Positions 16,003-31,318 of a stretch of 62,121 nt of DNA are shown here, one piece after another; within the stretch, counting starts at the first letter, position 1; every line of letters begins with the position of its first letter. The stretch is from Clostridiales bacterium (lineage in GTDB: Bacteria; Bacillota; Clostridia; Oscillospirales; Oscillospiraceae): contig JALFVN010000061.1 of assembly GCA_022787565.1 (NCBI GenBank), positions 1 through 62,121 on the forward strand, given 5' to 3'. The notes beneath the pieces are model-generated. The model searched no databases. It saw nothing but the letters and a program-made list of their open reading frames with translations, and was not told the DNA's origin. The position numbers and the translations under genes are program-made.

Positions 16003-16012
16003 TCCCATTGCC

Positions 16013-16675: not shown

Positions 16676-18054
16676 CAGTCATGCCTCCTGAGCTTTCCCC
16701 GGGAAAGCTCTTCTATTTTCTCTTCCAGCTCCTCAGTGGACAGGGAGGCCGTGCGCCCGCCCTCATACTGGGCGTCCACCCACAGCTTCAGTTCCTGCAC
16801 CAGTTCGTCGTGCTTTCCCACCATGTTTTCAGCCTTCAGCCGGTAATTCTGGTTGATCCAGTAGGCAATGCCCGCAAGGCCGGAGTTCTTGCTGATAGCC
16901 ACTGTGGCCGGCCGGTCAAGGAGCTTTTCGGTGTTGAAAATATTGTAGATCTCCTCGTCCTTCAGCAGGCCGTCGGCGTGGATACCGGCCCGGGTCACAT
17001 TGAAATTCCGGCCCACGAAGGGGGTCATGGGCGGCAGCTTATAGCCGATCTCGTTGGTAAAATAGTCCGCGATCTCCGTGATCACCGTGGGATCCATGCC
17101 GTCCAGGGAGCCCCGGAGGGAGGCATATTCAAACACCATGGCCTCCAGCGGGATGTTCCCCGTCCGCTCGCCGATGCCAAGCAACGAGCAGTTCACGCCG
17201 CTGGCCCCGTAGAGCCAGGCGGTGGCGGCGTTGGCCACGGCCTTGTAAAAGTCGTTGTGGCCGTGCCATTCCAGATACTCGCTCTGCACATCGGAGTAGT
17301 GCTGCAGGCCGTAGATGATGCCGGGCACGCTGCGGGGCAGGGCCACTTCCGTATAGGGCACGCCGTAGCCCATGGTGTCGCAGGCCCGGATGCGCACCGG
17401 AATACCCGCCTCCTGGGACAGCTTCATCAGTTCATTGACAAAGGGCACCACAAAGCCGTAAAAGTCCGCTCTGGTGATGTCCTCCAGATGGCAGCGGGGC
17501 ATGACCCCGGCGTCAAAGGCGTCCTTCACCGTGGCAAGATAGTGCTCCATGGCCTGCCGGCGGGTCATTTTCAGCTTTTTGAAGATGTGATAGTCGCTGC
17601 AGGAGACCAGAATACCCGTCTCCCGGATGCCCAGATCCCGCACCAGCCGGAAATCCTCCTTGCTGGCCCGGATCCAGGTAGTGATCTCCGGGAAGCGGAG
17701 CCCCAGGTCCATGCATCGCTCCACTGCCTCCCGGTCCTTTTTGCTGTAGATGAAAAACTCCGTCTGGCGGATAAGGCCGTAGGGTCCGCCAAGTCTGGCC
17801 ATCAGCTTATAAAGGTCCACGATCTGGTCCGGCGTATAGGGGTTTACGGACTGCTGCCCGTCCCGGAAGGTGGTGTCCGTGATCCAGATGTCCTCGGGCA
17901 TGTTCATTGGCACCCGGCGGTGGTTGAAGGCCACCTTGGGCACCTCGTCGTAGTTATACACATCCCGGTACAGGATCGGTTCCGGCACGTCCTGGAGCGA
18001 GTATCTATAGTCGTTCTCCTCCAGCAGATTGGTCTTGGGCGAAAGCTCCAGCAT
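16675..18054 (-). CDS. (Re)-citrate synthase (homocitrate/isopropylmalate synthase-like)
   Basis: 459-residue HMGL-like TIM-barrel enzyme. Features: ITDTTFRDGQQSVNPYTP (metal/acetyl-CoA site), GGPYGLIRQTEFF, CSDYHIFKKL, RCHLEDITRADFYGFVVPF, IRACDTMGYGVP, WHGHNDFYKAVANA (metal histidines) and NVTRAGIHADGLLKDEEIYNIF. This set matches the clostridial (Re)-citrate synthase first assigned in Clostridium kluyveri, often misannotated as homocitrate synthase. Next to aconitase and isocitrate dehydrogenase it would make 2-oxoglutarate for glutamate synthesis without a normal citrate synthase. The frame extends to 18105, but ATG at 18054 has AAGGAGGC 8 bases upstream and lies downstream of the promoter, so it is the start. 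Confidence 0.85.
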   Translation of the reverse strand: MLELSPKTNLLEENDYRYSLQDVPEPILYRDVYNYDEVPKVAFNHRRVPMNMPEDIWITDTTFRDGQQSVNPYTPDQIVDLYKLMARLGGPYGLIRQTEFFIYSKKDREAVERCMDLGLRFPEITTWIRASKEDFRLVRDLGIRETGILVSCSDYHIFKKLKMTRRQAMEHYLATVKDAFDAGVMPRCHLEDITRADFYGFVVPFVNELMKLSQEAGIPVRIRACDTMGYGVPYTEVALPRSVPGIIYGLQHYSDVQSEYLEWHGHNDFYKAVANAATAWLYGASGVNCSLLGIGERTGNIPLEAMVFEYASLRGSLDGMDPTVITEIADYFTNEIGYKLPPMTPFVGRNFNVTRAGIHADGLLKDEEIYNIFNTEKLLDRPATVAISKNSGLAGIAYWINQNYRLKAENMVGKHDELVQELKLWVDAQYEGGRTASLSTEELEEKIEELSRGKLRRHD

Positions 18055-18080
18055 CCCGTATTGCCTCCTTTTTGTGCTCT

Positions 18081-18124
18081 TGTATAATTGTATACAATTA
18101 TACACATCTCATTTCATTTGTCCA
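18081..18124 (-). promoter_or_regulatory. Promoter with a perfect 24-bp palindromic operator
   Basis: Minus strand TGGACA (18124-18119), 16-base spacer, TATAAT (18102-18097). Positions 18081-18104 are a perfect palindrome (half site TGTATAATTGTA) centred between 18092 and 18093, covering the -10 box and the start region. A repressor bound there would block polymerase. The GntR/FCD protein encoded in the operon is the likely binder. Confidence 0.78.
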
Positions 18125-18189: not shown

Positions 18190-18399
18190 TTGACACAGAG
18201 TGTTTTTTGCAAGATAATTCAGACACTTGGAGGGAAAATGCCGCCGATAACCGCCATGGTCAGGCCTGTCTCATCAGGTGATGAGCCTGCGCCGGCCGGC
18301 CCGTACCGGGCAAGTGGTTCGGGGCATTGAAAGAACTGTTTTCCGCCCTTGTCCCTGCATGAGGGAGATGGCAGCGGAACGAAGAAAAAGAGAGGGTTA
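18190..18399 (+). promoter_or_regulatory. Promoter and ~175-base leader of the TSUP gene
   Basis: TTGACA (18190-18195), 17-base spacer, GATAAT (18213-18218). The leader that follows is structured: TCATCAGGTGATGA is a palindrome (18269-18282) and CCGGCCGGC-rich stems follow. It also contains a 30-codon open frame, ATG at 18238 behind GGAGGG, ending TGA at 18330, which could be a leader peptide. The 11 bases TTGACACAGAG at 18190-18200 recur at the ROK gene promoter (19209-19219). I could not match the leader to a riboswitch class I know. Confidence 0.5.
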
Positions 18400-19182
18400 A
18401 TGGACATTTTATTTTTTATCATCAGCTTTTTTGCCTCCATTATCGGGGGCATCTGCGGCATCGGCGGCGGAGTGATCATCAAGCCCACGCTCGATCTGGC
18501 CGGGCTTGCCGGTGTTGCCGCCGTCAGCTTCCTTTCAAGCTGCACGGTTCTGAGCATGTCGGCCTATAACGTGGGCAAAAGTTTTGCCGAAAAGTCGGCA
18601 GTCATCGACACCCACTCCGGAACGCCCCTGGCGCTCGGCGCGGCTGTGGGCGGCATTTTCGGCAACAAGCTCTTTTCTTTTCTGAAGCTTGGTCTGGGAA
18701 ACGACGCTGTGGCCGGTATTGCGCAGGCGCTGTGTCTGCTTGTTCTCACGCTGGGAACGCTGATTTATACCATCAACAAAAAGCGTATCCGCACCCGGAG
18801 TATTGACAGTGTTTTCGCCTGTGTCTGTATCGGCATTGCACTTGGTACGCTGTCCAGCTTTCTCGGCATTGGCGGCGGGCCGTTCAATCTTGTGGTACTT
18901 CACTATTTTTTCAGCATGGATACCAAGAAATCCGTATCCAACTCCCTGTATATCATCCTGTTCAGCCAGATTGCAAATATCGCGGTCACCCTTCTCAGCC
19001 ATACCGTACCGGATTTCACTGTGCCATCCCTGGTCTTGATGATCCTGGGCGGCATCCTGGGCGGGATCATCGGCAAAGCCATCAGCCGCCGGATCAACAG
19101 CGGCACGGTAGACAAGCTTTTCATCGCTCTCCAGACGGTAATTATCTGTATCTGCGTTTATAATGCAGCAAAATACCTCTGA
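18400..19182 (+). CDS. TSUP-family membrane transporter (TauE/SafE, sulfite/organosulfur-type exporter)
   Basis: 260-residue membrane protein with about eight hydrophobic segments and the two TauE/SafE glycine-rich signatures, GGICGIGGGVIIKP near the N-terminus and SSFLGIGGGPFNLVVLHYFF in the second half. The family exports sulfite, sulfoacetate or related anions, or takes up small organic anions. ATG at 18400 with GAGAGGG upstream is preferred to the longer frame from 18349. It precedes a sulfatase operon and shares a promoter element with that operon's regulator, so disposal of sulfate or sulfite released by the sulfatases is a reasonable inference. Confidence 0.82.
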   Translation: MDILFFIISFFASIIGGICGIGGGVIIKPTLDLAGLAGVAAVSFLSSCTVLSMSAYNVGKSFAEKSAVIDTHSGTPLALGAAVGGIFGNKLFSFLKLGLGNDAVAGIAQALCLLVLTLGTLIYTINKKRIRTRSIDSVFACVCIGIALGTLSSFLGIGGGPFNLVVLHYFFSMDTKKSVSNSLYIILFSQIANIAVTLLSHTVPDFTVPSLVLMILGGILGGIIGKAISRRINSGTVDKLFIALQTVIICICVYNAAKYL

Positions 19183-19208
19183 AACCCTGCCGCCTTTCGG
19201 CAATTCAG

Positions 19209-19238
19209 TTGACACAGAGAAACTTTTCCCGTTATAAT
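19209..19238 (+). promoter_or_regulatory. Promoter of the ROK regulator gene
   Basis: TTGACA (19209-19214), 18-base spacer, TATAAT (19233-19238), 44 bases upstream of the ATG. It shares the 11-base string TTGACACAGAG with the TSUP promoter, which may mark a common operator. Confidence 0.65.
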
Positions 19239-19282
19239 GAAGTACAGCAGCCCCATACCGTATCGATCAAGGAGATGTATGC

Positions 19283-20407
19283 ATGGAAAAAATCACCTCG
19301 GAGACCATGCGCAACTTTAACCGGCGGCAGATCTATAACTATATTTTTACCAACAAGCGCACCTCCAGGCAAGCAATTGCAGACGATCTGAACCTGAGTC
19401 TGCCCACGGTCACCCAGAATCTGAAGCTGCTGGAAGAGGAGAATCTGATTGAGCGCTGCGGCTTTTTTCAGTCCACCGGCGGCAGAAAGTGCGTTGCCTA
19501 TAGCTGCGTAAGTACAGCCCGGGTGGCTATCGGCGTCCACATTACGCCCCACAGTCTTCGGCTTGTGGCGGTAGATATGTACGGAAGCATCATCAAGCGC
19601 CAGCAGCTCAGCGAGGATTACCGCCACAGTGATGAATATTACCAGCGCTTCGGCGCCTATGTCTGCACTTTTGTAAAGTCTCTTAATCTTTCTGCAAAGC
19701 GCGTTCTCGGCGTGGGCATCGCTTTGACTGCCCTGCTGTCCAGAGACAGAAAACATGTCTCCAAAAGCCTTCTGCTGGGCTCAGATGAAGCCAGCCTTGC
19801 CGATTTTCAGGCGCAGCTGCCCTATCCCTGCCAGCTGTTCCACGACAGCGAGGCTGCCGCCGATGCAGAGCTGTGGTTTTCCCCGAACATCAACGACGCG
19901 CTCTATCTGGGCATCAATTACCACCTTAACGGCATGCTGATCATGAACAGGAAAATCCACGCCGGGAAGGAATACACCGGCGGTCTTGTGGAACATCTTA
20001 CGCTTTATCCGGGAGGCCGGGATTGCTACTGCGGAAAGAAGGGCTGCTTTACGGCCTACTGTTCCGGCCATGTCCTGTTTGACGAGGCGGAGGGCGCCTG
20101 CGAAAACTTCTTTGCCGCCCTGCACAGCGGAGACAAGGAGGCAATCACCAAATGGCAGCATTTCCTGTCGGATCTCTCCATTGCGATTGGCAGCCTCAGC
20201 GCCCTTCTTGACTGCGATATCATCCTGGGCGGTACGGTTGGCGCGTATATGACGGAAGAGGACAGGCTCCTGCTTCAGCAGCTTGTACGCAGCAACTATC
20301 ATTTTGCCCCGTCTTCGGACTTCATCTGTCTCGGCTACAAGGACATAGATATATGCGCATGCGGGGCAGCCCTCGCATATGTTGAGGAATTTATCAAAAG
20401 TATATAA
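19283..20407 (+). CDS. ROK-family transcriptional regulator
   Basis: 374-residue repressor of the NagC/XylR (ROK) type. The N-terminal winged helix covers about 10-70 (YIFTNKRTSRQAIADDLNLS, LPTVTQNLKLLEEENLIE). The sugar-kinase-like domain follows, with the ROK metal-binding cysteines in GGRDCYCGKKGCFTAYCSG. Such proteins sense a sugar or sugar phosphate. It stands between the TSUP gene and the TctABC-sulfatase operon, is followed by its own terminator, and is the obvious candidate regulator of both. The ligand is unknown but should be a pathway substrate or intermediate. Confidence 0.88.
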   Translation: MEKITSETMRNFNRRQIYNYIFTNKRTSRQAIADDLNLSLPTVTQNLKLLEEENLIERCGFFQSTGGRKCVAYSCVSTARVAIGVHITPHSLRLVAVDMYGSIIKRQQLSEDYRHSDEYYQRFGAYVCTFVKSLNLSAKRVLGVGIALTALLSRDRKHVSKSLLLGSDEASLADFQAQLPYPCQLFHDSEAAADAELWFSPNINDALYLGINYHLNGMLIMNRKIHAGKEYTGGLVEHLTLYPGGRDCYCGKKGCFTAYCSGHVLFDEAEGACENFFAALHSGDKEAITKWQHFLSDLSIAIGSLSALLDCDIILGGTVGAYMTEEDRLLLQQLVRSNYHFAPSSDFICLGYKDIDICACGAALAYVEEFIKSI

Positions 20408-20418
20408 TTTATTCATCG

Positions 20419-20457
20419 GGACGAAAGAACGGAGTATCCGTTTTTTCGTCCTTTTTT
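20419..20457 (+). terminator. Terminator after the ROK gene
   Basis: Stem GGACGAAAGAACGGA (20419-20433) pairs with 20437-20451 (one G-T pair), loop GTA, followed by TTTTTT. Confidence 0.8.
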
Positions 20458-20494
20458 ACAAAATGTTTCCCAATAAAATGGTGGATAATCATAA

Positions 20495-20523
20495 TTGACA
20501 GCACCAAAAAAACATGATAGTCT
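20495..20523 (+). promoter_or_regulatory. Promoter of the TctCBA-sulfatase operon
   Basis: TTGACA (20495-20500), 17-base spacer, TAGTCT (20518-20523). The ~65-base untranslated leader that follows has three TCGAAA-like copies (20549-20582), a possible regulator site. No other promoter of this quality was seen before 31198. Confidence 0.6.
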
Positions 20524-20595
20524 TTAAATAACTTATGCAAGGAGACTTGTCGAAAGTATCCTGCATCGAAAAATTATCGAAAGGAAAATGAGAAA

Positions 20596-21663
20596 ATGAA
20601 AAAAATTACAGCAATCCTTCTTTCCCTCGTTATGCTTCTTTCTCTGTGCGCATGCGGCTCGGGAGCCGCACAGCCTGCGCCCACAGCCCAGGAACCTGCA
20701 GCTTCCGATAGCGCAGCGGCTCCGGAAGCAGGCATTTCTGAAGCTGCCCAGAAGTATCCCAGCGAGAAGGTTATCACCTGGTATACCCAGGCCGCAGGCT
20801 CAGCTTCCGACGTAATTGCCAGAATTATCGGGCCCAAGCTTGGCGAGATTCTGGGGCAGAACGTTGTATATGAGAATCTGGGCGGCGCCGGCGGCATGAA
20901 CATGCTCATGCCCGTCTATAACAATCCCGCAGACGGTTATTCCATTGCAAGCCTCACCGTTCCCGCTCTGTGCATGACGCCCTTCTCTCCGGACTGTCCT
21001 TACACCTATGAAGACTTTTCTCCCCTTTACTGCGTGCAGAAACAGCCTCAGTGCCTGACTGTCCGCGCCGATGCTCCCTATACCACCATTGAAGAGTTCA
21101 TCCAGTATATTCAGGATCATCCCGACACAGTCCGTCTCGGCTCTCCCGGCGCAAGCTCCGTGCATTATATGGCTCTTGCCGGCTGGCAGCTGGAAACCGG
21201 ACTGCCCTTCTCCGTTGTTGCCTATGATGATGCGCCCACGCTGAACGCAGCGCTTCTCGGCGGTCATATTGAAGGTCTGGCCCTCGGCTATTCCGAAATC
21301 GCCCAGTATGTAAATTCCGGTGATTTCCGCATCTTGTGCTTTACTACCCACCACGAGCAGAAGCCCGCAGGCTATGAAGATATTCCCACCTTTGCCGAAT
21401 TGGGCTACAGCGCAATGGGCGTGGCCTTCCAGGGCATCTGTATCAAGGCCGGAACAGATCCCGATGTTTATAATATTCTGACCGACGCTTTCGAGCAGGT
21501 TTTTGCCGATCCTGAGATCATCGCTCAGCTCACGGAGGCAAATATCTGGATCGAAGGCACCTTTGAGGGTCCGGAAGCGTTCACCCAGACCATTATTAAC
21601 GACTACAATTATTACGAAAAGGTCCTGAACGAGACGGGTCTTATGCAGGAGCTCTACGGCTAA
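20596..21663 (+). CDS. TctC-type substrate-binding lipoprotein of a tripartite tricarboxylate transporter
   Basis: 355-residue solute-binding protein with a lipoprotein signal ending LLSLCAC (lipidated Cys20), a low-complexity Ala/Pro linker, then a TctC/BugE-like domain: YPSEKVITWYTQAAGSASD, LGQNVVYENLGGAGGMNML, RLGSPGASSVHYMAL and GLALGYSEIAQYV. These proteins bind carboxylates and other small organic anions outside the membrane. It heads an operon with TctB, TctA and sugar-catabolic enzymes including two sulfatases, so the ligand may be a sulfated or carboxylated sugar derivative rather than citrate. AAAGGAAAATG ribosome region upstream. Confidence 0.88.
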   Translation: MKKITAILLSLVMLLSLCACGSGAAQPAPTAQEPAASDSAAAPEAGISEAAQKYPSEKVITWYTQAAGSASDVIARIIGPKLGEILGQNVVYENLGGAGGMNMLMPVYNNPADGYSIASLTVPALCMTPFSPDCPYTYEDFSPLYCVQKQPQCLTVRADAPYTTIEEFIQYIQDHPDTVRLGSPGASSVHYMALAGWQLETGLPFSVVAYDDAPTLNAALLGGHIEGLALGYSEIAQYVNSGDFRILCFTTHHEQKPAGYEDIPTFAELGYSAMGVAFQGICIKAGTDPDVYNILTDAFEQVFADPEIIAQLTEANIWIEGTFEGPEAFTQTIINDYNYYEKVLNETGLMQELYG

Positions 21664-21706
21664 CGCGCCGGCGCAGCTATTATACAGATTCAAGGGGGCA
21701 ACGCCG

Positions 21707-22162
21707 TTGAAAGAAAAGCATATAAACATCGCCATTGCAACTGTGCTGATGTGCATTGACGCGGTCTTTTTATATTCCGCATTTACCGCCAGGGAATACA
21801 AGGGAGCGATCGTAGGTCCCTTCGATTTTGCCAAGTATCTTGGCATAATGCTGGCTGTGCTGTGCGTGATCATTATCATCCAGAGTCTGTTTGCAAAGAC
21901 AAAGGAGGAAAAGATCGTGATCACCCATTTTGACCTTGTGCTGATAACCGTGTCTGCAACGGCGTTGCTTCTTATTCTCTGGAAGTCCTTTGGTCTCTTT
22001 TATCTCTGGGGCCTTCTTTATGTGTTCGGCCTGTTTATTGCCTACTGCGGCAAGAGCGAGAAACTGACTTTGAAAAAAATGCTGGGATTGGGGATTCTCT
22101 CCGTTGCGGTCATGCTGGCGATCTTCCTGCTGTTCAGGATACTGATGGGCATCAATTTATAA
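21707..22162 (+). CDS. TctB-type small membrane subunit
   Basis: 151-residue protein with four hydrophobic segments (HINIAIATVLMCIDAVFLY, LGIMLAVLCVIIIIQSLF, LVLITVSATALLLILWKS, LSVAVMLAIFLLFRILM), as in TctB subunits. Starts at a TTG behind AAGGGGG. It lies between tctC and tctA in the usual C-B-A order. TctB sequences are poorly conserved, so position counts for much of the call. Confidence 0.82.
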   Translation: MKEKHINIAIATVLMCIDAVFLYSAFTAREYKGAIVGPFDFAKYLGIMLAVLCVIIIIQSLFAKTKEEKIVITHFDLVLITVSATALLLILWKSFGLFYLWGLLYVFGLFIAYCGKSEKLTLKKMLGLGILSVAVMLAIFLLFRILMGINL

Positions 22163-22174
22163 GGAGGACTGAAA

Positions 22175-23677
22175 ATGACTGTATTCGGCTTTGATATTCT
22201 TTCGTTGTTTCAGCCTTTGAATCTGTTTCTCTGTTTTGCAGGCGTATTCATTGGTCTGCTTGTAGGTGCGATGCCGGGTCTCGGTACGACCCTTGCCATT
22301 GCGCTGGTGCTTCCCTTTACTTACAAACTCAACCCCCTGACGGCCATACTGCTCTTGCTGTGTGTCTATCAGGGTGCAGAATACGGCGGTTCCATCTCCG
22401 CCATCATTCTGGGCATTCCCGGAACCGCAGGTGCGGCGGCCACCTGCCTTGACGGCAACATACTGGCCAAGGCAGGCAGACCGTCCGAAGCGCTCCGTTA
22501 TTCGCTCACTGCATCCACCATCGGCGGCCTGTTCGGCGCTTTTGTAATGCTGTTTTTCACCAGACCGGTCGGGGTTTTTGCGCTGCGTTTCTCCGCCCCG
22601 GATTACTGTATGCTTGGTCTTCTGGCCTGTATCGCCGTTATTTCCATGAGTAAGGGCAACTATATCAAAGGTCTGGTAAGCATCATTCTGGGACTGCTGC
22701 TCAGCCTGGTGGGCACCGATGTGATCAACGGTGCAGTGCGTTTCAACTTCGGACAGCCCGAGTTGTATGACGGATTGGATACCGTGTGCCTTATCGTGGC
22801 GGTCTTTGCCATTCCCGAACTGCTCTGCGTGATCTGTGACGACCTTAACATCCGTTATGCCGTATCCTCTCAGAAGAGCAAAGCGAACATCACAATAAAA
22901 GACCACATCAAAAATCTTCCGACAATGCTGAGCGGAAGCATTATCGGCACCATCGTGGGGATCTTCCCCGGTCTCGGCGGAGGCGTGGCCGCATGGATGT
23001 CCTATATGTTCACCTCGCGGACGGCAAAAAAGCCGGAAACTTTCGGAAAAGGCAATCCAAAGGGAATTTACGCACCCGAATCGGCAAACAACGCTTCTGT
23101 CGCCGGCTCCATGATTCCCATGCTCTCCATGGGAATCCCCGGCTCCAGTGCAGCGGCTCTGATCGGCGCCGCCTTCACCATGCAGGGGATCCAGGTTGGC
23201 CCCATGCTCTTCAATACCGATTCTCAACTGCTGTATGGCATCTTTTTTGGTTTCTTCCTTTCCGTAATCCTGCTGTACCTGCTGGGACGTCTCCTGACGC
23301 CGTTTTTCTCCAGGATCCTTGTTGTCCGGAACGCTTTCCTTGTGCCGATCCTTCTCATTCTCTGCATTATCGGCGGTTTTGCAACGAAAAAGCAGTTTCT
23401 GCAGTTGTGGATCGCCTTGGCTCTTGGAGTGCTGTTCTTCTTTATGAAGCGCAGCCATTATCCTCTTGCTCCGCTGATCATCGCTTTTATTCTTGGCCCG
23501 ATTATAGAGAAAAATTTCCGCCGCGCGCTTACCCTCTCCAACGGGAGTTTCTCCATTTTTCATCAAACAGCCTGTTCCCGCGTAATTCTTGTCATTCTGC
23601 TTGCCTTTGTTCTGTATCCGTTCATCAGGACTGCGATCAGCTTCTGGCGGGAAAAGCGGAATAAAACGGGCAAATAA
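22175..23677 (+). CDS. TctA-type large membrane subunit
   Basis: 500-residue permease with about twelve hydrophobic segments. TctA signatures are GLLVGAMPGLGTTLAIALVL, YQGAEYGGSISAIILGIPGT and, in the second half, IVGIFPGLGGGVAAWMSY and MLSMGIPGSSAAALIGAAF. It forms the sodium- or proton-driven channel part of the importer with TctB and TctC. AAGGAGG site upstream. The whole C-B-A set is intact and tightly spaced. Confidence 0.92.
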   Translation: MTVFGFDILSLFQPLNLFLCFAGVFIGLLVGAMPGLGTTLAIALVLPFTYKLNPLTAILLLLCVYQGAEYGGSISAIILGIPGTAGAAATCLDGNILAKAGRPSEALRYSLTASTIGGLFGAFVMLFFTRPVGVFALRFSAPDYCMLGLLACIAVISMSKGNYIKGLVSIILGLLLSLVGTDVINGAVRFNFGQPELYDGLDTVCLIVAVFAIPELLCVICDDLNIRYAVSSQKSKANITIKDHIKNLPTMLSGSIIGTIVGIFPGLGGGVAAWMSYMFTSRTAKKPETFGKGNPKGIYAPESANNASVAGSMIPMLSMGIPGSSAAALIGAAFTMQGIQVGPMLFNTDSQLLYGIFFGFFLSVILLYLLGRLLTPFFSRILVVRNAFLVPILLILCIIGGFATKKQFLQLWIALALGVLFFFMKRSHYPLAPLIIAFILGPIIEKNFRRALTLSNGSFSIFHQTACSRVILVILLAFVLYPFIRTAISFWREKRNKTGK

Positions 23678-23713
23678 CCGTATTCTACAACTTGCAGCGA
23701 TTTGGGGGGGCAC

Positions 23714-24646
23714 ATGAAACCAGCCATTTCAACAAGAATCTATATCCAGTCTTTCGGCCGTGAGCGGTACCGGAGCAATGTTGAAGTGATTGAAAAGCTT
23801 CACGAGCTTGGCTTTGAGGTCCTGGATTTCAATTTCAACTGGGGCATTGCAGAAAATATTGATTTCATTCTGCGGAAGGACGATTGGCAGCAGCAGATCG
23901 ACCTTGTTGCAAATACCGCTCAGCGTATAGGTGTCAGTTTTTCGCAGGCCCACCTTCCTTTCATAAAGGCTTGCTGCAGGCAGTGCGATCCCTCGTTCCG
24001 CAACAGCGGGTATGAAGAATACTTCAACGAATGTATGCGCAGAGCCTATATTGCCTGTGGAATGCTTGGCGTCAAATATGTGACCGCCCACCCCATCACC
24101 TGTATTGAGTGCAATTTTGAGCGGGAAGCCACTTTTGACGCCAACCGGAAATATTATGATCCCTATGTCGAACTGGGCATCCGGAACAATGTGGGAACAG
24201 CATTTGAAAACATGATGCCCTGCCTGGATGCCTCCCTTCCGGTAAGATACTGCCAGCACTATGACGAGCTGATCGAATTGGTTGACAGCTATAATGATCC
24301 TATGGTTGCCGTATGCTGGGATACCGGGCACGCAAACGGAATGATGCTTGACCAGCCGCGGGCCATACGCGTTTTGGGAAAACGCATTAAAAATCTGCAT
24401 ATCAACGATAACCATCGCTGCAGCCGGGATGAACACCTGCTTCCCTTCATGGGCAGTATCGACTGGTACAGCCTTATGGCCGCGCTGGCAGAGGCAGGCT
24501 ACAGCGGTGACATGACGCTCGAGTCTCATGTGGGCGACGACGCTGTCGGAAGTCTGCAGGAGGATATGATAAGGCTTTCCCGGAAGAGCGCAGAGTTCCT
24601 TATTGATATTTTCCGGGAAGCAAAAGGCCGGAAGTCTGTGAACTAA
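23714..24646 (+). CDS. Sugar phosphate isomerase/epimerase, xylose-isomerase-like TIM barrel
   Basis: 310-residue AP-endonuclease-2/xylose-isomerase-like barrel. Likely metal ligands are the Glu in NVGTAFENM, Asp and His in CWDTGHANGMM, His in LHINDN and Glu in MTLESHVGD. Proteins of this fold isomerise or epimerise ketoses, inositols or hydroxypyruvate. The ATG at 23714 sits behind a run of eight G. In this operon it probably reshapes the desulfated sugar or polyol before or after phosphorylation. The reaction cannot be named from sequence. Confidence 0.83.
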   Translation: MKPAISTRIYIQSFGRERYRSNVEVIEKLHELGFEVLDFNFNWGIAENIDFILRKDDWQQQIDLVANTAQRIGVSFSQAHLPFIKACCRQCDPSFRNSGYEEYFNECMRRAYIACGMLGVKYVTAHPITCIECNFEREATFDANRKYYDPYVELGIRNNVGTAFENMMPCLDASLPVRYCQHYDELIELVDSYNDPMVAVCWDTGHANGMMLDQPRAIRVLGKRIKNLHINDNHRCSRDEHLLPFMGSIDWYSLMAALAEAGYSGDMTLESHVGDDAVGSLQEDMIRLSRKSAEFLIDIFREAKGRKSVN

Positions 24647-24691
24647 GCAGCAGACATTCCGAAACATACAGGTTATTTAACGGAGAAAACA

Positions 24692-26152
24692 ATGAATACA
24701 GCACCCAATATACTCTGGATATGCACGGATCAGCAGCGTTACGATACGATCGCTGCTCTGGGAAACAGTCATATCCACACCCCGAACCTTGACCGGCTTG
24801 TCAGGGAAGGCGTCAGTTTTAACCGTACCTACTGCCAGAACCCCATATGTTCTCCCAGCCGCGGGAGCTTTATGACCGGGCGTTATCCCCGCACCACGCG
24901 TTCATTTATCAATGGAAATGACACATTTTCCAAAGACGAGACCCTGGTTACCAAACTTCTGGCCGACGGTGGATATCATTGCGGTCTTGTGGGGAAACTG
25001 CACCTCACTTCCCACTACCGCCGGATGGAGGAGAGGCTGGAAGACGGCTTCTGCTATTTTGAATGGAGTCCGCAGCCCTGCGACGACTGGGCTCCGGGCC
25101 TGAACCGCTACATGGAATGGCTGAAAGCCAAGGGCGTGGATTGGCATAAAGAGTATGTCATGCCCTGCGAGTGGCCGCCGCGCAACGGCTACAAGCTTCC
25201 CGAGCGAATAAAGGGAATGGAAGAGCAGTATCACCAGACCACCTGGTGCATGGAAAAGGCCATGGACTTCATCTCGGGCTATGACGGGACGCAGCCCTGG
25301 TGCCTCTGCATCAATCCCTTTGATCCTCACCCGCCTTTTGATCCCCCTGATTCTTACAAAGAAAGACTCAACATACAGGACATGCCGCTGCCCTTATGGA
25401 AAGAGGGCGAGTTGGACAACAAACCCTTCGCGCACAAAGACTGCTACCTCCACGGGTCCCAAAAGGGGATGGTGCGCGATACGGTCGGCATGACCGACGT
25501 GGAAAAGCAGGAAGTAACGCGGGATTACTATGCTGAGATAGAGCTTATGGACACGCAGATCGGCCGGGTCCTGGATTTTCTGGACGAGAGAGGCCTGCGG
25601 GAAAAAACCGTTGTCGTTTTTATGAGCGATCACGGGGAGATGCTGGGTGACCACGGGATCTATTGGAAGGGCGGTTACTTTTATGACAGCCTTATCCGTG
25701 TTCCGCTTATCATATCCTGGCCCGGTCATTTCCTGCAGAATGTTGTCAGCAATGCCCTTGTGGAGTTGGTGGACATTGCTCCCACTCTGTTGGAGCTTGC
25801 AGGCTTGCCCGTTCCCCAATACATGCAGGGAAAAAGCCTTCTTCCGCTGCTCAAAGGCGAAGTGGCTAAGGATTTTCATAAGGAACGGGTATATACGGAA
25901 TTCTATTTTTCAACGGTGCTGATGCACCAGATTTATGCCACCATGATGTTCGACGGGCGTTATAAAATCGTCGTGCATCACGGCGAGGAAATCGGAGAGC
26001 TGTATGATCTTCAGGAGGATCCGAAGGAATTTGACAATCTCTGGAACCGTCCCGGTTATGAGCAGCTTCAAAACAGAAAGATCAAAGAATGCTTTGACCA
26101 CACAATTTTATGCAATATAGACCGGGTCCTCGGTCGGCGTTTCAATTATTGA
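24692..26152 (+). CDS. Sulfatase, Cys type, cytoplasmic (CSPSR)
   Basis: 486-residue alkaline-phosphatase-superfamily sulfatase. The formylglycine motif is C-S-P-S-R with Cys53, followed by GSFMTGRYP. Metal-site stretches are ILWICTDQQRYDT (Asp13), PFDPHPPFDPPDSY and VVFMSDHGEMLGDHG. There is no signal peptide, so desulfation should happen inside the cell after uptake. Cys-type enzymes in anaerobes need a radical SAM maturase (anSME), none of which is in the window. Phosphonate monoester hydrolase and choline-sulfatase-like enzymes share this architecture, so the ester cleaved is open. It follows the importer and isomerase genes. Confidence 0.88.
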   Translation: MNTAPNILWICTDQQRYDTIAALGNSHIHTPNLDRLVREGVSFNRTYCQNPICSPSRGSFMTGRYPRTTRSFINGNDTFSKDETLVTKLLADGGYHCGLVGKLHLTSHYRRMEERLEDGFCYFEWSPQPCDDWAPGLNRYMEWLKAKGVDWHKEYVMPCEWPPRNGYKLPERIKGMEEQYHQTTWCMEKAMDFISGYDGTQPWCLCINPFDPHPPFDPPDSYKERLNIQDMPLPLWKEGELDNKPFAHKDCYLHGSQKGMVRDTVGMTDVEKQEVTRDYYAEIELMDTQIGRVLDFLDERGLREKTVVVFMSDHGEMLGDHGIYWKGGYFYDSLIRVPLIISWPGHFLQNVVSNALVELVDIAPTLLELAGLPVPQYMQGKSLLPLLKGEVAKDFHKERVYTEFYFSTVLMHQIYATMMFDGRYKIVVHHGEEIGELYDLQEDPKEFDNLWNRPGYEQLQNRKIKECFDHTILCNIDRVLGRRFNY

Positions 26153-26207
26153 CGGATACAGTGCGCACATTTGTGCGCTTCCCCTTTCCGGAAAAGAGGC
26201 AATACTG

Positions 26208-27149
26208 ATGGATTATTACATAGGAGTAGACTCCGGCGGCTCAAAAACGGAATGTGTTCTTGCCGACGAGTCGGGTCATGTGCTGCAGCGTTCTGTTGAC
26301 TGCGGCTGCAATCCGCTGGATATCGGGCCGTGCTTAGCCAGTGAGATCATCCTGAAAAACCTTGAGCAGCTCGCTGAACACGCCCCCGAACGGGTCAGTT
26401 CCATCTATGCGGGAATTGCAGGGGCAAATCATGTGGATATGCACCTTGCGGAGAGCATCAAACAGCGCTTTGACGGAGCAAAGGTTCGTGTCGAAGACGA
26501 CCGCCGCATTGTTGTCTCCGGCACACTGGGCCACGCAGACAGCTGCGGAATGATCTGCGGCACAGGGTCTTCACTCTCCATCATCATCGGAGACGAACCC
26601 ATACGCCAGGTCGGCGGCCTGGGCTATCTCATCGATACCGGAGGCAGCGGATACGAATTGGGCCAGGCCGGTCTGCGGCAGGTCTGCCGCTATCTCGACG
26701 GGCGCGGCGAATACACCGTGCTTGCAGAATTGATGACCGGTGTCCTGGGAAAGGAACCCTGGGACGCTCTTGCAGATATCTACGCCGGAGGGCGGCCTTT
26801 CATCGCCTCTCTCGCGCACACGGTATTCGAGGGCATGGATATGGGCGACACGGTCTGCAGACGGCTTGTGGAGGAATCGGCTTACAAGCTTTCAGAGCTC
26901 ACCTTCGCCGCCGAAAAGTATTTTGACGGAGAATTTCCGGTCGTCATGACCGGAGGAATCTTCAACGCCTACCCCAAATATGTTCAGCTGGTCTGCGCCA
27001 AAGCATCGCCGAAAGCAAAGATGATCATGGCGGAGGTGCCCCCGGTTTACGGAGCGCTGGTGGAAGCCATGTGGCAGAATGGGCAGATCGCGGATATGAC
27101 CGTGCGGAGCAATTTCATGCGCTGCGTTTCCCCTTCAATCAGCGAATAA
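26208..27149 (+). CDS. BadF/BadG/BcrA/BcrD-type ATPase, N-acetylglucosamine-kinase-like sugar kinase
   Basis: 313-residue ASKHA-fold kinase. N-terminal phosphate loop YYIGVDSGGSKTECVLAD, CNPLDIG, AGIAGANHVD, then CGTGSSLSIIIG and GGSGYELGQAGLRQ, and the adenosine motif VMTGGIFNA near 250. The set resembles N-acetylglucosamine/glucosamine kinases more than the CoA dehydratase activators of the same Pfam family, since the activator cysteines are absent. It likely phosphorylates the desulfated sugar. It lies between the two sulfatases in the same operon, which ties phosphorylation closely to desulfation. Confidence 0.83.
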   Translation: MDYYIGVDSGGSKTECVLADESGHVLQRSVDCGCNPLDIGPCLASEIILKNLEQLAEHAPERVSSIYAGIAGANHVDMHLAESIKQRFDGAKVRVEDDRRIVVSGTLGHADSCGMICGTGSSLSIIIGDEPIRQVGGLGYLIDTGGSGYELGQAGLRQVCRYLDGRGEYTVLAELMTGVLGKEPWDALADIYAGGRPFIASLAHTVFEGMDMGDTVCRRLVEESAYKLSELTFAAEKYFDGEFPVVMTGGIFNAYPKYVQLVCAKASPKAKMIMAEVPPVYGALVEAMWQNGQIADMTVRSNFMRCVSPSISE

Positions 27150-27153
27150 TCTC

Positions 27154-27188
27154 TACGCATCGCCGCAGTTCTGCTGCGGCGATGCGTA
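27154..27188 (+). other. Intercistronic 15-bp hairpin
   Basis: Perfect stem TACGCATCGCCGCAG (27154-27168) with 27174-27188, loop TTCTG. No T-run follows, so it looks like an mRNA-stabilising or attenuating hairpin between the kinase and the second sulfatase rather than a full terminator. Confidence 0.7.
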
Positions 27189-27213
27189 AGACTGTTTGAT
27201 AAAGGAGCATTCT

Positions 27214-28641
27214 ATGCACAAACGACCGAATATCTTATTTCTGTTTACCGATCAGCAGCGGGCAGACACCATTCATGCGCTGGGCAATCCGCGTATCTGT
27301 ACTCCCGCCCTTGACGCGCTGGCCGGAGAGTCAACCGTATTTGAAAACTGCGTAACACCCGCTCCGGTGTGCGTACCTGCCCGGTTTTCTATCTTCAGCG
27401 GGCTTTATCCGGCCCATTCCGGCTGCTGCAACAACAATTACGGCAGTGCATATCAGGGCGATGGCTTTTACAGCCGCTTCACGGAGCAGGGATACCAGAC
27501 CTGCAGCGTGGGTAAAATGCACCACACCGCGGATCTCTATGGCCCCATGGGTTTTGAAAAGCGTTTTACCCAGGAGGAAATGGCAGACCCCCGGGATGAT
27601 TATACCCAGTATATCAGCGGCGGCCCGTTCAAGAATGTGTTTGACTACAACGGCCAGCGAAGCGAGATGTACTATATTCCCCAGGTCTCTCAACTGCCTG
27701 CTGAGGCCCATCCCACCCAATGGGTTGGTGACCGGAGCGTAGAGTTTCTCTCCTCCTGCGACCCGGAGCGTCCTTTTTTCCTTGTGAGTTCCTTTATCCA
27801 TCCCCATCCGCCCTTCTCTCCCCCGGCGCCTTGGAACAAAATGTACCGCACCGTCTCGACAGACCCCTATATGCCCGCCGACCCCGGAGAATTCACGGCC
27901 TTTATGAGCGACCGGTTCACGCTGGACAAGATCGGGGTCAGCCGGCAGGATCTCAGTCTGCTGCGGAACTTCTACTACGCCTGCATTTCCTTCATCGACT
28001 ACCAGATCGGCCGGATCATTGCGGTGCTGAAAGCCCGGGGCATGTACGAAAACACCATCATCGTGTTTTCCTCCGACCACGGGGAGATGCTGGGGGATTT
28101 CGGAACCATGGGCAAGCGTTCCATGCTGGACGGTGCACTGCGGATTCCGCTGATGATCCGCCGGCCCGGCTTTGCAGGAGCACGCCGCCGGGATGTCTGC
28201 TCCCTGGTAGACATTGCGCCCACGCTTCTGTCCTGTGCCGGGATCGGCTATGACGGCAGCATGTTCGATGGTTTGGATCTGTTTTCCGGTGCCCGTCATC
28301 AGGAGGTTTTTTCCCAGTTCAGCACCGGGGCCAGCGGCGCCTACACGGTGGCAAGCGCACAGGACAAGCTGATATACCACGCCTTTGAAGACCGCTGGTA
28401 CTATTTCGACGTCAGCCCCGAAGACACCAACAAATACGATGAAAGCAACCCGCGGGTACACGCCCTCCGCCTTCTGCTGGAGCGCTATATGCGCGAGGAT
28501 CTGTGTACCGACGGAAGCGGCAGCGCCGATTTCTTCTCCAGCAGGAACAAGTTTCCTTACGGCCCCAAGCGGGGAGATCATCTGAACCGCAGGGACGAGG
28601 AGCTTGCCCGGATGCCGGAAGGCTACAATATTGATATATAA
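27214..28641 (+). CDS. Second sulfatase, Cys type, cytoplasmic (CVPAR)
   Basis: 475-residue sulfatase with the motif C-V-P-A-R, Cys53 at the same residue number as in the first sulfatase, followed by FSIFSGLYP. Other stretches are ILFLFTDQQRADTIHALG, SSFIHPHPPFSPP and VFSSDHGEMLGDFG. It differs widely from the first enzyme outside these motifs, so the two probably act on different ester positions or on successive intermediates. No signal peptide. ATG at 27214 has AAAGGAG upstream. The Ala in place of the usual Ser in the motif is seen in some Cys-type sulfatases; maturation by anSME should be checked. Confidence 0.87.
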   Translation: MHKRPNILFLFTDQQRADTIHALGNPRICTPALDALAGESTVFENCVTPAPVCVPARFSIFSGLYPAHSGCCNNNYGSAYQGDGFYSRFTEQGYQTCSVGKMHHTADLYGPMGFEKRFTQEEMADPRDDYTQYISGGPFKNVFDYNGQRSEMYYIPQVSQLPAEAHPTQWVGDRSVEFLSSCDPERPFFLVSSFIHPHPPFSPPAPWNKMYRTVSTDPYMPADPGEFTAFMSDRFTLDKIGVSRQDLSLLRNFYYACISFIDYQIGRIIAVLKARGMYENTIIVFSSDHGEMLGDFGTMGKRSMLDGALRIPLMIRRPGFAGARRRDVCSLVDIAPTLLSCAGIGYDGSMFDGLDLFSGARHQEVFSQFSTGASGAYTVASAQDKLIYHAFEDRWYYFDVSPEDTNKYDESNPRVHALRLLLERYMREDLCTDGSGSADFFSSRNKFPYGPKRGDHLNRRDEELARMPEGYNIDI

Positions 28642-28654
28642 GGGAGAACAGGCA

Positions 28655-29824
28655 ATGAACAAAGCCATTATCATCGGCGCCGGCCAGATCGGCCGCGGCT
28701 TTATCGGCATGGAGCTGGAGAAAGCCGGGTATCATGTCGTTTTCGCGGACATCAACATGGCCGTCATTGACGACCTGAACCGGCGCGGCGAATACACTGT
28801 CCATATGGTGGACACGGAGTGTGCAGACACCGTCGTCCGCAATATCTCCGCCATGAGTTCTCTTGATCCCGGGCTGCCGGATCTGTTCCGGGATGAGGAG
28901 CTGTCCCTCGTCTGCACCTCCGTGGGCCAGTCCGCGCTTGCCAGGGTAGCCCCAACGATTGCGAAGGGGGTCTCTCTGCGCGCCTCGGCCGGGATCAATC
29001 TGCCCATAAACATCATCGCAGTAGAAAATGCCGCCGGAGGAAGCACCCAGCTTCGCAAACATGTATTCGCTCTCCTCACGGATGCGGAGCAGAACTATGC
29101 CGGGCAATATATCGGTTTTCCCAACTGCGCGGTGGACAGAATCATCCCCAGCAATGCCCAGGGGACAAACGCCGCCGATGTGGTTGTGGAGAAGTATTAC
29201 GAATGGGACGTGGAGCGCGCCGGCGTTCGGGCGGAGCTTCTGCCGGTCGACGGGCTCAGTCTGGTGGACGATCTGGATGCCTATCTGGAGCGCAAATTCT
29301 ATACGCTCAACGGCCCCAATGCCGTAACCGCCTGTCTGGGTTATCTGAAAGGCTATCAGACCATAAAAGAATCTCTTGAGGATCAGGAGATCCGGAAGGT
29401 GGTCTGGGGAATGATGGAGGAGTGCGGGCAGATGCTGGAAAAACGCCACGGTTTTTCCGCGGAAGAGATGCTCTCCTACCGCAGCAAGCTGATGCAGCGC
29501 TTTCTCAATCCCTATATCATTGACAGCGTTACAAGAGTCGCCAGAGAGCCTATACGGAAGCTCTCACCGGCAGACAGGATCATTGCGCCGATGAATGCGG
29601 CGCTGGGTTACGGGATCGCCGTTCCCTGTTACTATACCGGCGCTGCAAGTCTGCTGCTTTACGATAACCCCGCCGACGAACAGAGTCAGGAACTCCGGCA
29701 GATGATTTCCCGCCTGGGCGTCCGTCCGGCTCTGGAAACAGTGAGCGGCGTCCCGGCAGGATCGGCGGCAGCCCTTGCCATAGAAAAAGAATATGTCAGA
29801 CTCGCGGAGAAGAAGAAAAAATGA
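28655..29824 (+). CDS. Mannitol-1-phosphate 5-dehydrogenase-like polyol dehydrogenase with altered active-site motif
   Basis: 389-residue member of the long-chain polyol dehydrogenase family. NAD site IIGAGQIGRGFIG at 6-18. The family's catalytic signature is K-x4-N-x2-H; here Lys214 and Asn219 are present but the final position is Asn222 (KFYTLNGPN). The surroundings (ITA/VTACLGYLKGYQTI) still look like MtlD, so the change is probably real and may shift substrate choice. It likely oxidises a phosphorylated sugar alcohol or reduces a ketose phosphate. Start ATG at 28655 has GGGAGA upstream. Stop overlaps the next gene's start (ATGA). Confidence 0.8.
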   Translation: MNKAIIIGAGQIGRGFIGMELEKAGYHVVFADINMAVIDDLNRRGEYTVHMVDTECADTVVRNISAMSSLDPGLPDLFRDEELSLVCTSVGQSALARVAPTIAKGVSLRASAGINLPINIIAVENAAGGSTQLRKHVFALLTDAEQNYAGQYIGFPNCAVDRIIPSNAQGTNAADVVVEKYYEWDVERAGVRAELLPVDGLSLVDDLDAYLERKFYTLNGPNAVTACLGYLKGYQTIKESLEDQEIRKVVWGMMEECGQMLEKRHGFSAEEMLSYRSKLMQRFLNPYIIDSVTRVAREPIRKLSPADRIIAPMNAALGYGIAVPCYYTGAASLLLYDNPADEQSQELRQMISRLGVRPALETVSGVPAGSAAALAIEKEYVRLAEKKKK

Positions 29825-31173
29825 CTGCTGAAGAAATCAAAAATACCGCGCTCTCCGCACTGGTGGAAATGGACGGCTTTGACTGCGCATGCGGACGCCG
29901 CCACAGCACGGCGATAAAACATGTCATTATCGAAGACGGTGCTGTACGCCGGCTTCCCGCCCTGCTCCGGGAATGCGGCAGCAAACGCCCCTTTATTCTT
30001 TCCGGTGCAGCCAGCTTCGCCGCAGCGGGCCAGCTGGTGGAAGAGCAGCTGGCATCAGCCGGTATAGGGTTTTCTGAATATGTCTTTCCTCAGCCGCCGG
30101 TTTCCCCCGCAGAATGGGCCGTGGGCAGCGCAGCAATGCACTTCGACGCCCGTTGCGATTCCATTCTGGCTGTAGGCTCCGGCGTGATCAATGACATCGC
30201 CAAGCTTCTCTCCTCCCTGACCGGACTGCCCTTCAGTATCGTCGCAACCGCGCCGTCTATGGACGGCTATGCTTCCGCCACATCTTCCATGGAGCGGGAC
30301 GGGCTCAAAATTTCCCTGCCCAGTACAGGGGCCTGGGCGGTGATCGGGGACCTTGACATTCTGGCCCAGGCGCCGCTTTCCCTGCTTCAGGCCGGCGTGG
30401 GAGATATGCTGGCCAAAACCATCAGCCTGTGCGAATGGAAGCTGGCAAACAGGATCACCGGCGAATATTATTGCCCCACCCTTGCCGCGATGGTGGAAGG
30501 TGCCCTTGAGAAAGTCGTCGCCGCCGCGCCCGGTCTGCTCAGCCGGGATCACGAAGCGGTAAAAGCGCTTATGGAGGGCATGGTGATTTCCGGGCTCGCC
30601 ATGCAGTATGCCGGTTTGTCCCGCCCGGCCTCAGGCATGGAACACTATTTCTCCCATATCTGGGACATGCGTGCCCTCGCTTTCCCGGAGGCGCAGGCCC
30701 GTCCGCACGGAATACAGTGCGGGATTGCCACGCTGTATTCACTCAGAGTCTATGAATGGCTCCGGAACATCAAGCCGAACCGGGAAAAGGCCCTGGAGCA
30801 TGCGGCAAGCTTTTCTTATGAAGCCTGGAGCAGGGACCTGCTGCAATTTATCGGTCCCGGCGCCAGGGCAATGATCGATGAGGAAAAACAGGATCCCAAA
30901 TACGCGCTTTCCGCGCATGCGCTGCGTCTGGAACAGATTCTCCGTCAGTGGGATGAGCTGACGGCCATTATGGACAGTCTGCCCTCATGTGAGCGCATCC
31001 TGGCCTTGATGAAATCCATCGGCGCTCCGGTGTCTGCGGAAGAATTTGGGTATACTCCTGCGGATCTTCGCAGAACCTTTACCATGACCAAAGACATCAG
31101 AAACAAATATATCGGCAGCCTTCTTCTTTGGGATCTCGGGCTTCTGGACAGGGCTGCGGACAGTATTTTTTAA
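29821..31173 (+). CDS. sn-Glycerol-1-phosphate dehydrogenase-like (AraM/EgsA) metal-dependent dehydrogenase
   Basis: 450-residue member of the iron-containing alcohol dehydrogenase fold, AraM/EgsA branch. Cofactor loop AVGSGVINDIAK (117-128), TAPSMDGYASATSS (143-156), and likely metal ligands Asp195, His275 (SGMEHYFSHIWD) and His296 (ARPHGIQCG). AraM from Bacillus is shorter (about 394 residues); the C-terminal ~60 residues here are extra. The family reduces dihydroxyacetone phosphate to glycerol-1-phosphate or acts on related compounds. It overlaps the polyol dehydrogenase gene, so the two oxidoreductases are coupled, perhaps forming a redox pair in one pathway. Last gene of the operon. Confidence 0.82.
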   Translation: MTAEEIKNTALSALVEMDGFDCACGRRHSTAIKHVIIEDGAVRRLPALLRECGSKRPFILSGAASFAAAGQLVEEQLASAGIGFSEYVFPQPPVSPAEWAVGSAAMHFDARCDSILAVGSGVINDIAKLLSSLTGLPFSIVATAPSMDGYASATSSMERDGLKISLPSTGAWAVIGDLDILAQAPLSLLQAGVGDMLAKTISLCEWKLANRITGEYYCPTLAAMVEGALEKVVAAAPGLLSRDHEAVKALMEGMVISGLAMQYAGLSRPASGMEHYFSHIWDMRALAFPEAQARPHGIQCGIATLYSLRVYEWLRNIKPNREKALEHAASFSYEAWSRDLLQFIGPGARAMIDEEKQDPKYALSAHALRLEQILRQWDELTAIMDSLPSCERILALMKSIGAPVSAEEFGYTPADLRRTFTMTKDIRNKYIGSLLLWDLGLLDRAADSIF

Positions 31174-31197
31174 CCGGCGCATGTCACCGGAAAATGT

Positions 31198-31237
31198 GTA
31201 AAAAGTTCCGAAAACGCAAGTTTTCGGAACTTTTTAC
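31198..31237. terminator. Strong terminator closing the sulfatase operon
   Basis: Perfect 18-bp stem (31198-31215 with 31220-31237) capped by a GCAA tetraloop, A-run on one arm and T-run on the other, so it should work in both directions, ending the operon and the convergent DUF5655 gene. Confidence 0.88.
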
Positions 31238-31318
31238 ATATTCATATTTTATTTTCATATATTTCATTCTGATTCCCGGCAAAAGCAGATTCTGTCTCCC
31301 TATAAGGGGTGTCAATCA

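Follow-up and report, generated by a model that had tools for sequence, protein, structure and literature searches.

The window, a stretch of 62,121 nucleotides (contig JALFVN010000061.1 of assembly GCA_022787565.1), comes from a gut-type Clostridia bacterium of the family Oscillospiraceae, whose genome of 2.63 Mb in 77 contigs is 99% complete. Eleven of its genes, all on the plus strand, are the subject of this report: a TSUP membrane protein gene, a ROK-family regulator gene and a nine-gene operon encoding a tripartite tricarboxylate transporter (TTT; TctC, TctB and TctA), a TIM-barrel protein, two sulfatases (S1 and S2), a BadF-type kinase, and MtlD-like and AraM-like dehydrogenases. Profile searches with Pfam and NCBIfam models confirmed all these families at the places given in a preliminary description, which had been made from the sequence without database searches (Table 1).

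Table 1. Genes and putative control sites of the sulfatase locus (positions in the window).
Feature	Positions	Strand	Evidence
Promoter-like site 5' of TSUP	18190..18218	+	TTGACA-17-GATAAT, 11/12 consensus bases
TSUP (TauE/SafE) membrane protein, likely sulfate/sulfite exporter	18400..19182	+	PF01925 95.6 bits
Promoter-like site 5' of ROK	19209..19238	+	TTGACA-18-TATAAT, 12/12 consensus bases
ROK-family transcription regulator (NagC-like) with winged helix-turn-helix	19283..20407	+	PF00480 and PF13412
Intrinsic terminator-like hairpin between ROK and TctC	20418..20452	+	16 pairs + T-tract
TctC, solute-binding protein of the TTT	20596..21663	+	PF03401 124.4 bits
TctB, small membrane subunit	21707..22162	+	PF07331 29.2 bits, cut-off 29.1 (marginal)
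TctA, large membrane subunit	22175..23677	+	PF01970 441.8 bits
AP_endonuc_2 TIM-barrel protein, full endonuclease IV metal-ligand set	23714..24646	+	PF01261 79.0 bits
Sulfatase S1, cytoplasmic by position of its core	24692..26152	+	PF00884 163.5 bits, SGSH_C; CSPSR
BadF/BadG-type sugar kinase (NagK/MurNAc-kinase-like)	26208..27149	+	PF01869 73.9 bits
Sulfatase S2, cytoplasmic by position of its core	27214..28641	+	PF00884 163.9 bits; CVPAR
MtlD-like (mannitol-1-phosphate-dehydrogenase-like) polyol-phosphate dehydrogenase	28655..29824	+	PF01232/PF08125, 150.4 + 119.5 bits
AraM/glycerol-1-phosphate dehydrogenase-like enzyme	29821..31173	+	PRK00843 176.7 bits, cut-off 413; 4-base overlap with MtlD
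Terminator-like hairpin at operon end	31196..31239	+	20 pairs

The operon extends from TctC to the AraM-like gene (20596-31173), and its nine genes are spaced by -4 to 64 bases according to the starts used, among which those of TIM, S2 and MtlD, like that of TSUP, were preferred by eye from ribosome-binding sites. Two strong hairpins bracket the operon, and the plus-strand terminator-like sites listed between them have 5 to 8 pairs each, in agreement with the earlier statement that no strong terminator lies inside. The numbers of terminator-like sites (14 in the region vs 15.9 in shuffles) and promoter-like sites (10 vs 9.9) were not above those of shuffled sequences, and thus weight was placed only on individual strong sites. 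The G+C content is 46-54% from TSUP through S1, and 57-58% both from BadF through AraM and in the flanks.

Both sulfatases retain the C-x-P-x-R maturation motif together with SDHG, as formylglycine sulfatases do. The motif was present in 30 of the 31 sulfatase sequences compared, six from the same genome and 25 from other loci (two of these 25 are repeats, since loci L074 and L102 are the same contig). The catalytic core begins at about residue 6 in S1 and at residue 6 in S2 with the start used, so that a signal peptide would not fit in front of it, as the preliminary description had noticed; as judged from their sequences, S1 and S2 are cytoplasmic formylglycine-type enzymes. The closest solved structure of S2 was 7oz8, which is the 3S-GlcNAc (N-acetylglucosamine) sulfatase BT1918, a distant likeness. 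The top solved match of S1 was 4upi, an entry described no further than as a sulfatase family protein; BT1918 and 6S-GlcNAc sulfatases ranked under it. In the available part of the literature on BT1918-like S1_46 sulfatases, the N-acetyl pocket is described as consisting of two Tyr and one Arg.

The search for sulfatases matched six genes in the genome, of which S1 and S2 are two; the other four lie on another contig, C39. Among five matches to the sulfatase maturase anSME, one was above the cut-off, and it lies on C39 beside the four sulfatases. C39 also encodes two paralogues of the TIM protein (47 and 49% identical to that of the window), two of the BadF kinase (44 and 42%), one of S2 (48%), a 30% identical relative of AraM and a SIS-domain protein, and reading by eye added a DeoR-like regulator and an apparent sugar ABC importer. 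As far as these sequences tell, the genome thus has two sulfatase gene sets with TIM, S2-type sulfatase, BadF and AraM relative in common and with different importers.

With TctA, TctB and TctC in one operon the importer belongs to the TTT systems, although TctB is barely above its cut-off; the closest solved structure of TctC was 4x9t (E 2.8e-36), for which no ligand is named. The relatives of TSUP in L072, L125 and L126 (loci fetched from other genomes bear L numbers; 49, 42 and 36% identical, respectively) adjoin an anSME gene. In L125 and L126 a sulfatase gene sits directly beside this pair, and in L072 the distance is about 6 kb. TSUP likely exports freed sulfate, a direction suggested by analogy with a proposal made for Streptococcus pneumoniae (see below) and by this gene neighbourhood. 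The ROK protein scored 79.4 bits with the NagC model, under the cut-off of 650. A shared ROK operator was sought by eye only, in upstream sequences, and none is claimed.

The block recurs in other genomes. A contig scan with three TIM proteins gave eight named loci, five of which contained a sulfatase match (L067, L071, L072, L073 and L074); no such match was found in L068, L069 or L070, and L068 starts at a distance of 1.3 kb from the end of its contig. L101, which lies in a metagenome-assembled genome (MAG) of Hungatella sp. on a contig other than that of L074 from the same genome, has the order ROK-TctC-TctB-TctA-TIM-BadF-S1-S2, with identities of 65% for ROK, 81% for TctC, 50% for TctB, 76% for TctA, 63% for BadF, 76% for S1 and 72% for S2. 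In comparison with the window, S1 and BadF are swapped and the TIM protein is from another subfamily, being 30% identical to a C39 paralogue. In L067, from an Oscillospiraceae MAG with the isolate name Lapin, TctCBA-TIM-anSME occurs with a ROK gene (63% identical), two S1-type sulfatases and a zinc alcohol dehydrogenase; S1 relatives are 75-76% identical in L067 and L101. S2-type sulfatases were detected at E 1e-100 in 7 of 391 genomes of the class, the present one included, and four of the six S2-type loci fetched from other genomes have an anSME match (L122, L124, L125 and L126), two of them with TSUP as well (L125 and L126).

The best plasmid relative of S1 (53% identical) was found in the alphaproteobacterium Falsirhodobacter algicola (L139), between TctB-TctA-TctC, which it directly follows, and a second sulfatase. 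Orthology of the whole cluster was considered and dropped, as TctC is 27% and TctA 48% identical to those of the window, and the second sulfatase (34% to S1, 32% to S2) is not an S2 orthologue. Six S1-type plasmid stretches were opened of 786 records with a match, and a TTT system was present in that of Falsirhodobacter only; of the other five, three have annotated sugar ABC transporters, one has such a transporter by gene calling and one has other ABC genes. All relatives found in plasmid scans with S2 and TctC were below 60% identity, and among viral sequences S1 had two relatives, both distant (29%). The operon, probably for a sulfated small molecule, is real, recurring and patchily distributed. 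The rarity of S1 (see below) and the G+C composition suggest that the front part of the locus was gained horizontally.

Several observations on related sulfatases stand apart from these comparisons. In a Chelativorans plasmid (L142), an S1-type sulfatase is located near a sugar ABC importer, a formylglycine-generating enzyme, an L-rhamnose mutarotase, a sugar phosphate isomerase/epimerase and a Gfo/Idh gene, which may be a pathway for a sulfated deoxysugar. Sulfatase-like genes with about 28-29% identity to S1 or to a C39 sulfatase are also present on two large IMG/VR contigs (L137 and L138). An open frame of 1152 residues in L074 (10912-14370), 48% identical to a C39 sulfatase, extends into an unidentified region.

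Because the block recurs elsewhere and the genome encodes an anSME, the operon is best read, and probably correctly, as a system for importing a small organic sulfate, desulfating it in the cytoplasm and catabolising the remainder, which is in essence what the preliminary description had put forward. As a first guess, the substrate would be a sulfated hexose or N-acetylhexosamine freed by other gut bacteria. In the order proposed here, the anionic sulfated sugar would be bound by TctC and imported through TctAB; S1 and S2, matured by the anSME encoded on C39, would strip sulfate from two positions or from two substrates; and TSUP would carry the freed sulfate out. The BadF-type kinase would then phosphorylate and so trap the desulfated sugar, and the TIM metalloenzyme with the MtlD-like and AraM-like enzymes might pass the product to triose- and hexose-phosphate metabolism. 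The ROK regulator would hold the operon repressed until the sugar or its phosphate arrives.

Several results weigh against this reading. S1 was found at E 1e-60 in one of 60 relatives, namely the genome itself, 36 of these 60 being other members of the genus, and at E 1e-120 in one of 358 genomes of the phylum, again only its own. TSUP matches were absent from the stretches cut out for L101 and L067, and the 17 kb fetched around L101 gave no match to MtlD or AraM either, the rest of that genome lying outside the search; MtlD and AraM accordingly look, on gene content, like an add-on to the core block. None of the solved relatives of TctC (BugD, terephthalate-binding proteins and others; E 3e-15 to 3e-36) is named for a sulfate ester. 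S1 also matches the phosphonate monoester hydrolase 2w8s and PehA (224.8 bits, cut-off 900), the metal site of TIM is of the phosphoesterase type, and neither a GlcNAc deacetylase nor a deaminase was recognised in the window cluster or the C39 cluster.

As a special case of import and desulfation, the substrate could be mono- or disulfated GlcNAc from mucin or heparan sulfate, which BadF would convert to GlcNAc 6-phosphate for completion by NagA and NagB encoded elsewhere. The hints are that S2 is nearest to BT1918, that BT1918 and 6S-GlcNAc sulfatases are among the lower-ranking matches of S1, that the profile of the three BadF paralogues has as its closest solved structure the N-acetylmuramic acid (MurNAc)/GlcNAc kinase 8zo3 (E 1.1e-31), that the regulator is NagC-like, and that nagA (above cut-off) and a nagB-like match (below cut-off) are located elsewhere in the genome. 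However, the likeness to BT1918 is distant, the route leaves TIM, MtlD and AraM without a place, and mannosidase-type genes near sulfatases in other loci point to mannose, namely a GH92-looking gene (read by eye) near the S2-like sulfatases of L125 and L126 and GH38-type genes near the L072 sulfatase. This special case is rather unlikely.

The TIM protein, for which the preliminary description had proposed an isomerase, showed an unexpected metal site. All nine metal ligands of endonuclease IV are conserved in 20 of 20 aligned TIM proteins, that of the window included, and in E. coli Nfo aligned with them (the TIM proteins of L105, L108, L109 and L127 were left out), whereas the isomerase and epimerase controls UlaE, YcjR and Hyi retain five, five and four of the nine, respectively. 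The metal site of ketose 3-epimerases and sugar isomerases comprises Glu, Asp, His and Glu and lacks the additional ligands of endonuclease IV, and the full set in TIM departs from it. The closest solved structure was MJ1311 (E 1e-16), whose alignment shows eight of the nine ligands, the first falling before the aligned stretch; we take MJ1311 to have all nine. The list of nine ligands was checked against the accessible part of a CpEndoIV structure paper of 2026 (PMC13113976). The best NCBIfam model for TIM was that of D-psicose 3-epimerase, with 39.7 bits (E 4.7e-10) against a cut-off of 300; in the structure search, psicose-type epimerases (E 5e-8) outranked endonuclease IV entries (from E 3e-4), and the nfo family model had no match at E 0.001 anywhere in the genome. 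On the ligand comparison, the reading of TIM as an ordinary psicose/tagatose-type epimerase was dropped, although these whole-sequence scores favour epimerases over endonuclease IV. Judged on its residues alone, the protein leans toward a trinuclear metallohydrolase, so that the TIM barrel of the preliminary description stands and the isomerase is doubtful. CbiR is described, in the part of the source available, as a phosphodiester-cleaving enzyme of the same superfamily (PMC7733943), and the CbiR model gives a weak match to TIM (E 1e-4).

The AraM-like enzyme keeps D195, H275 and H296, which we take to be the Asp, His and His metal ligands of AraM/EgsA. It is 43-49% identical to its relatives of 20 fetched loci and has Thr a few residues past the Asp, where the 20 relatives have Tyr. 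A GDPD-type gene lies at most two genes from the AraM relative in 7 of these 20 loci (L036, L037, L040, L042, L048, L052 and L054; a single genome, G331, accounts for three of these); the neighbours were read by eye, and Pfam confirmed all five that were submitted. A glycerol-kinase-like FGGY gene adjoins the AraM relative in three loci (L039, L045 and L046; NCBIfam GlpK confirmed the one submitted), and a TIM protein with all nine ligands is nearby in two of the 20. From these neighbours, a catabolic role is proposed, and the gene contexts suggest that the AraM relatives form a family of catabolic glycerol-1-phosphate dehydrogenases. AraM was rejected as a marker of the pathway, since no sulfatase match was found in the 20 regions around the relatives of the window's AraM.

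As side observations, the loci with GDPD-type or glycerol-kinase-like genes could serve to use sn-glycerol-1-phosphate that derives from lipoteichoic acid or phosphatidylglycerol, and FAD_oxidored-type proteins occur near TIM, AraM, BadF or sulfatase genes in L040, L044, L051, L071, L099, L100, L104 and L143 (confirmed by Pfam in L040, L071 and L100, by eye elsewhere).

The nine ligands of TIM, the GDPD-type and glycerol-kinase-like neighbours of AraM relatives and the matches of S1 to PehA and phosphonate monoester hydrolases all agree with a rival explanation, in which S1 and S2 would be phosphate or phosphonate ester hydrolases and the operon would degrade a phosphodiester such as a glycerophospho-sugar, with TIM as the phosphodiesterase and AraM oxidising sn-glycerol-1-phosphate to dihydroxyacetone phosphate. 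The context of the sulfatases speaks otherwise: anSME occurs in the L067 block and near the S2-like genes of L122, L124, L125 and L126, TSUP accompanies anSME and sulfatase in three loci, and the 17 kb around L101 lack AraM. Phosphonate monoester hydrolases likewise use formylglycine, so the anSME and TSUP context weighs against the phosphodiester explanation without excluding it. We regard this explanation as unlikely, although a phosphate or phosphonate ester is still conceivable as the substrate class of the operon.

A variant would combine both activities. A sulfated glycosyl-glycerophospho compound would be imported by the TTT and desulfated in the cytoplasm, an MJ1311-type TIM phosphodiesterase would cleave it, AraM would oxidise the glycerol-1-phosphate, and the sugar would pass through BadF and the altered MtlD. 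This combination is very unlikely. If true, it would join desulfation to the catabolism of sn-glycerol-1-phosphate, and TIM, with its trinuclear site of the endonuclease IV type, would represent a phosphodiesterase of a new kind.

The MtlD-like enzyme scored under all nine mannitol-1-phosphate 5-dehydrogenase cut-offs, with 345.8 against 368 for the best of these nine PRK02318 models. The K-N-H catalytic motif of mannitol-1-phosphate 5-dehydrogenase reads K-N-N here, whereas His is conserved in 15 of 15 other genomes of the class matching at E 1e-60. At this threshold it is the sole match in its genome, and C39 therefore has an AraM relative without MtlD, as L100 likewise does.

The overlap of the MtlD and AraM genes at the end of the operon raises the alternative of a sulfated polyol as substrate or intermediate, in which the kinase would form an alditol phosphate, the MtlD-like enzyme would oxidise one end and the AraM-like enzyme the position next to the phosphate, so that the route to fructose 6-phosphate would be redox-neutral. 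The model for this is the L-sorbose pathway, in which sorbose-1-phosphate reductase and glucitol-6-phosphate dehydrogenase form a redox-neutral pair between a ketose phosphate and fructose 6-phosphate; that dehydrogenase pair is similar, but the enzyme families are others, import is by a phosphotransferase system (PTS) and there is no sulfatase. The TIM loci L070 and L073, with a zinc alcohol dehydrogenase and a PfkB kinase (best model fructokinase, both far under their cut-offs), fit such a route. Since MtlD has lost its catalytic His, neither dehydrogenase was found in the 17 kb of L101, and C39 and L100 separate the AraM relative from MtlD, a polyol is distinctly unlikely.

Import and cytoplasmic desulfation of a sulfated sugar remains the preferred reading. 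Three enzymes of the operon have unexpected active sites: the TIM protein has the ligand set of a trinuclear hydrolase, MtlD is altered at a catalytic residue, and AraM may be catabolic. The enzymology of these three proteins is the likeliest source of surprise.

Other genes of the window are mentioned here for completeness. A cas9 gene (cas_Csn1, 815.9 bits) is located on the minus strand at 1370-4660. Genes for an isocitrate/isopropylmalate-type dehydrogenase, an aconitase, a GntR-like regulator and a homocitrate/isopropylmalate-synthase-like enzyme, also on the minus strand (12941-18105), form an operon that looks like a 2-oxoacid or 2-oxoglutarate route. A minus-strand protein at 52997-54814 matches leucine-rich internalin-type models far under their cut-offs.

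The preliminary description had presented a pathway that it could not name. As a principle, however, import and desulfation are not new, since the island SPH1922-1929 of Streptococcus pneumoniae with its ROK-type regulator was interpreted in 2012, in the parts of the reports available, as a system for the uptake of sulfated sugars and the removal and export of the sulfate (proposal of the authors of PMC3302838; the island is also treated in PMC3283741). A ROK regulator, a sugar importer, a sulfatase and a TauE-family exporter are common to the island and the present locus. The pneumococcal maturase lies within its locus, whereas that of the present genome is on C39, and the island has a PTS importer and one sulfatase in place of a TTT and two sulfatases. 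BadF kinase, MtlD and AraM are not mentioned for the island in the available text of either report, and a ComA-like protein likened to an N-acetylmannosamine-6-phosphate epimerase is described (PMC3283741). According to the available text on the island (PMC3302838, PMC3283741), activity of the pneumococcal sulfatase on 4-methylumbelliferyl sulfate was not detected. With its TTT importer and its maturase on another contig, the present operon differs from an island of the pneumococcal type, but it may work alike.

No operon combining a TTT importer with sulfatases appeared among the matches listed in open PubMed Central full text, a scope outside which most subscription journals lie, and no comparable operon was found in the available portions of PMC7029141, PMC10838667 and PMC8379841. 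As far as those matches go, a version that pairs TTT import with these downstream enzymes is new. The Falsirhodobacter locus has a TTT importer followed by two sulfatases, as here; its record names no function, and no kinase, TIM, MtlD or AraM is annotated in the 20.6 kb opened, the gene table of which is incomplete.

Research on desulfation in the gut has centred on Bacteroides, and a review of 2022, as far as its accessible text goes, states that no putative glycosaminoglycan locus of gut Firmicutes had been characterised (PMC9067506). The Bacteroides loci (BT1918, BT3177 and BT4656) employ S1-family formylglycine sulfatases, as the present operon does; in the parts of the reports available, those enzymes are mostly periplasmic, some being at the surface, and belong to polysaccharide utilisation loci with other carbohydrate-active enzymes (PMC10154612, PMC10154620), whereas S1 and S2 are cytoplasmic by sequence. 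If the preferred reading is true, Clostridia would take sulfated monosaccharides whole, keep the release of carbon and sulfate to themselves, and either compete for the products liberated by Bacteroides or live on them by cross-feeding.

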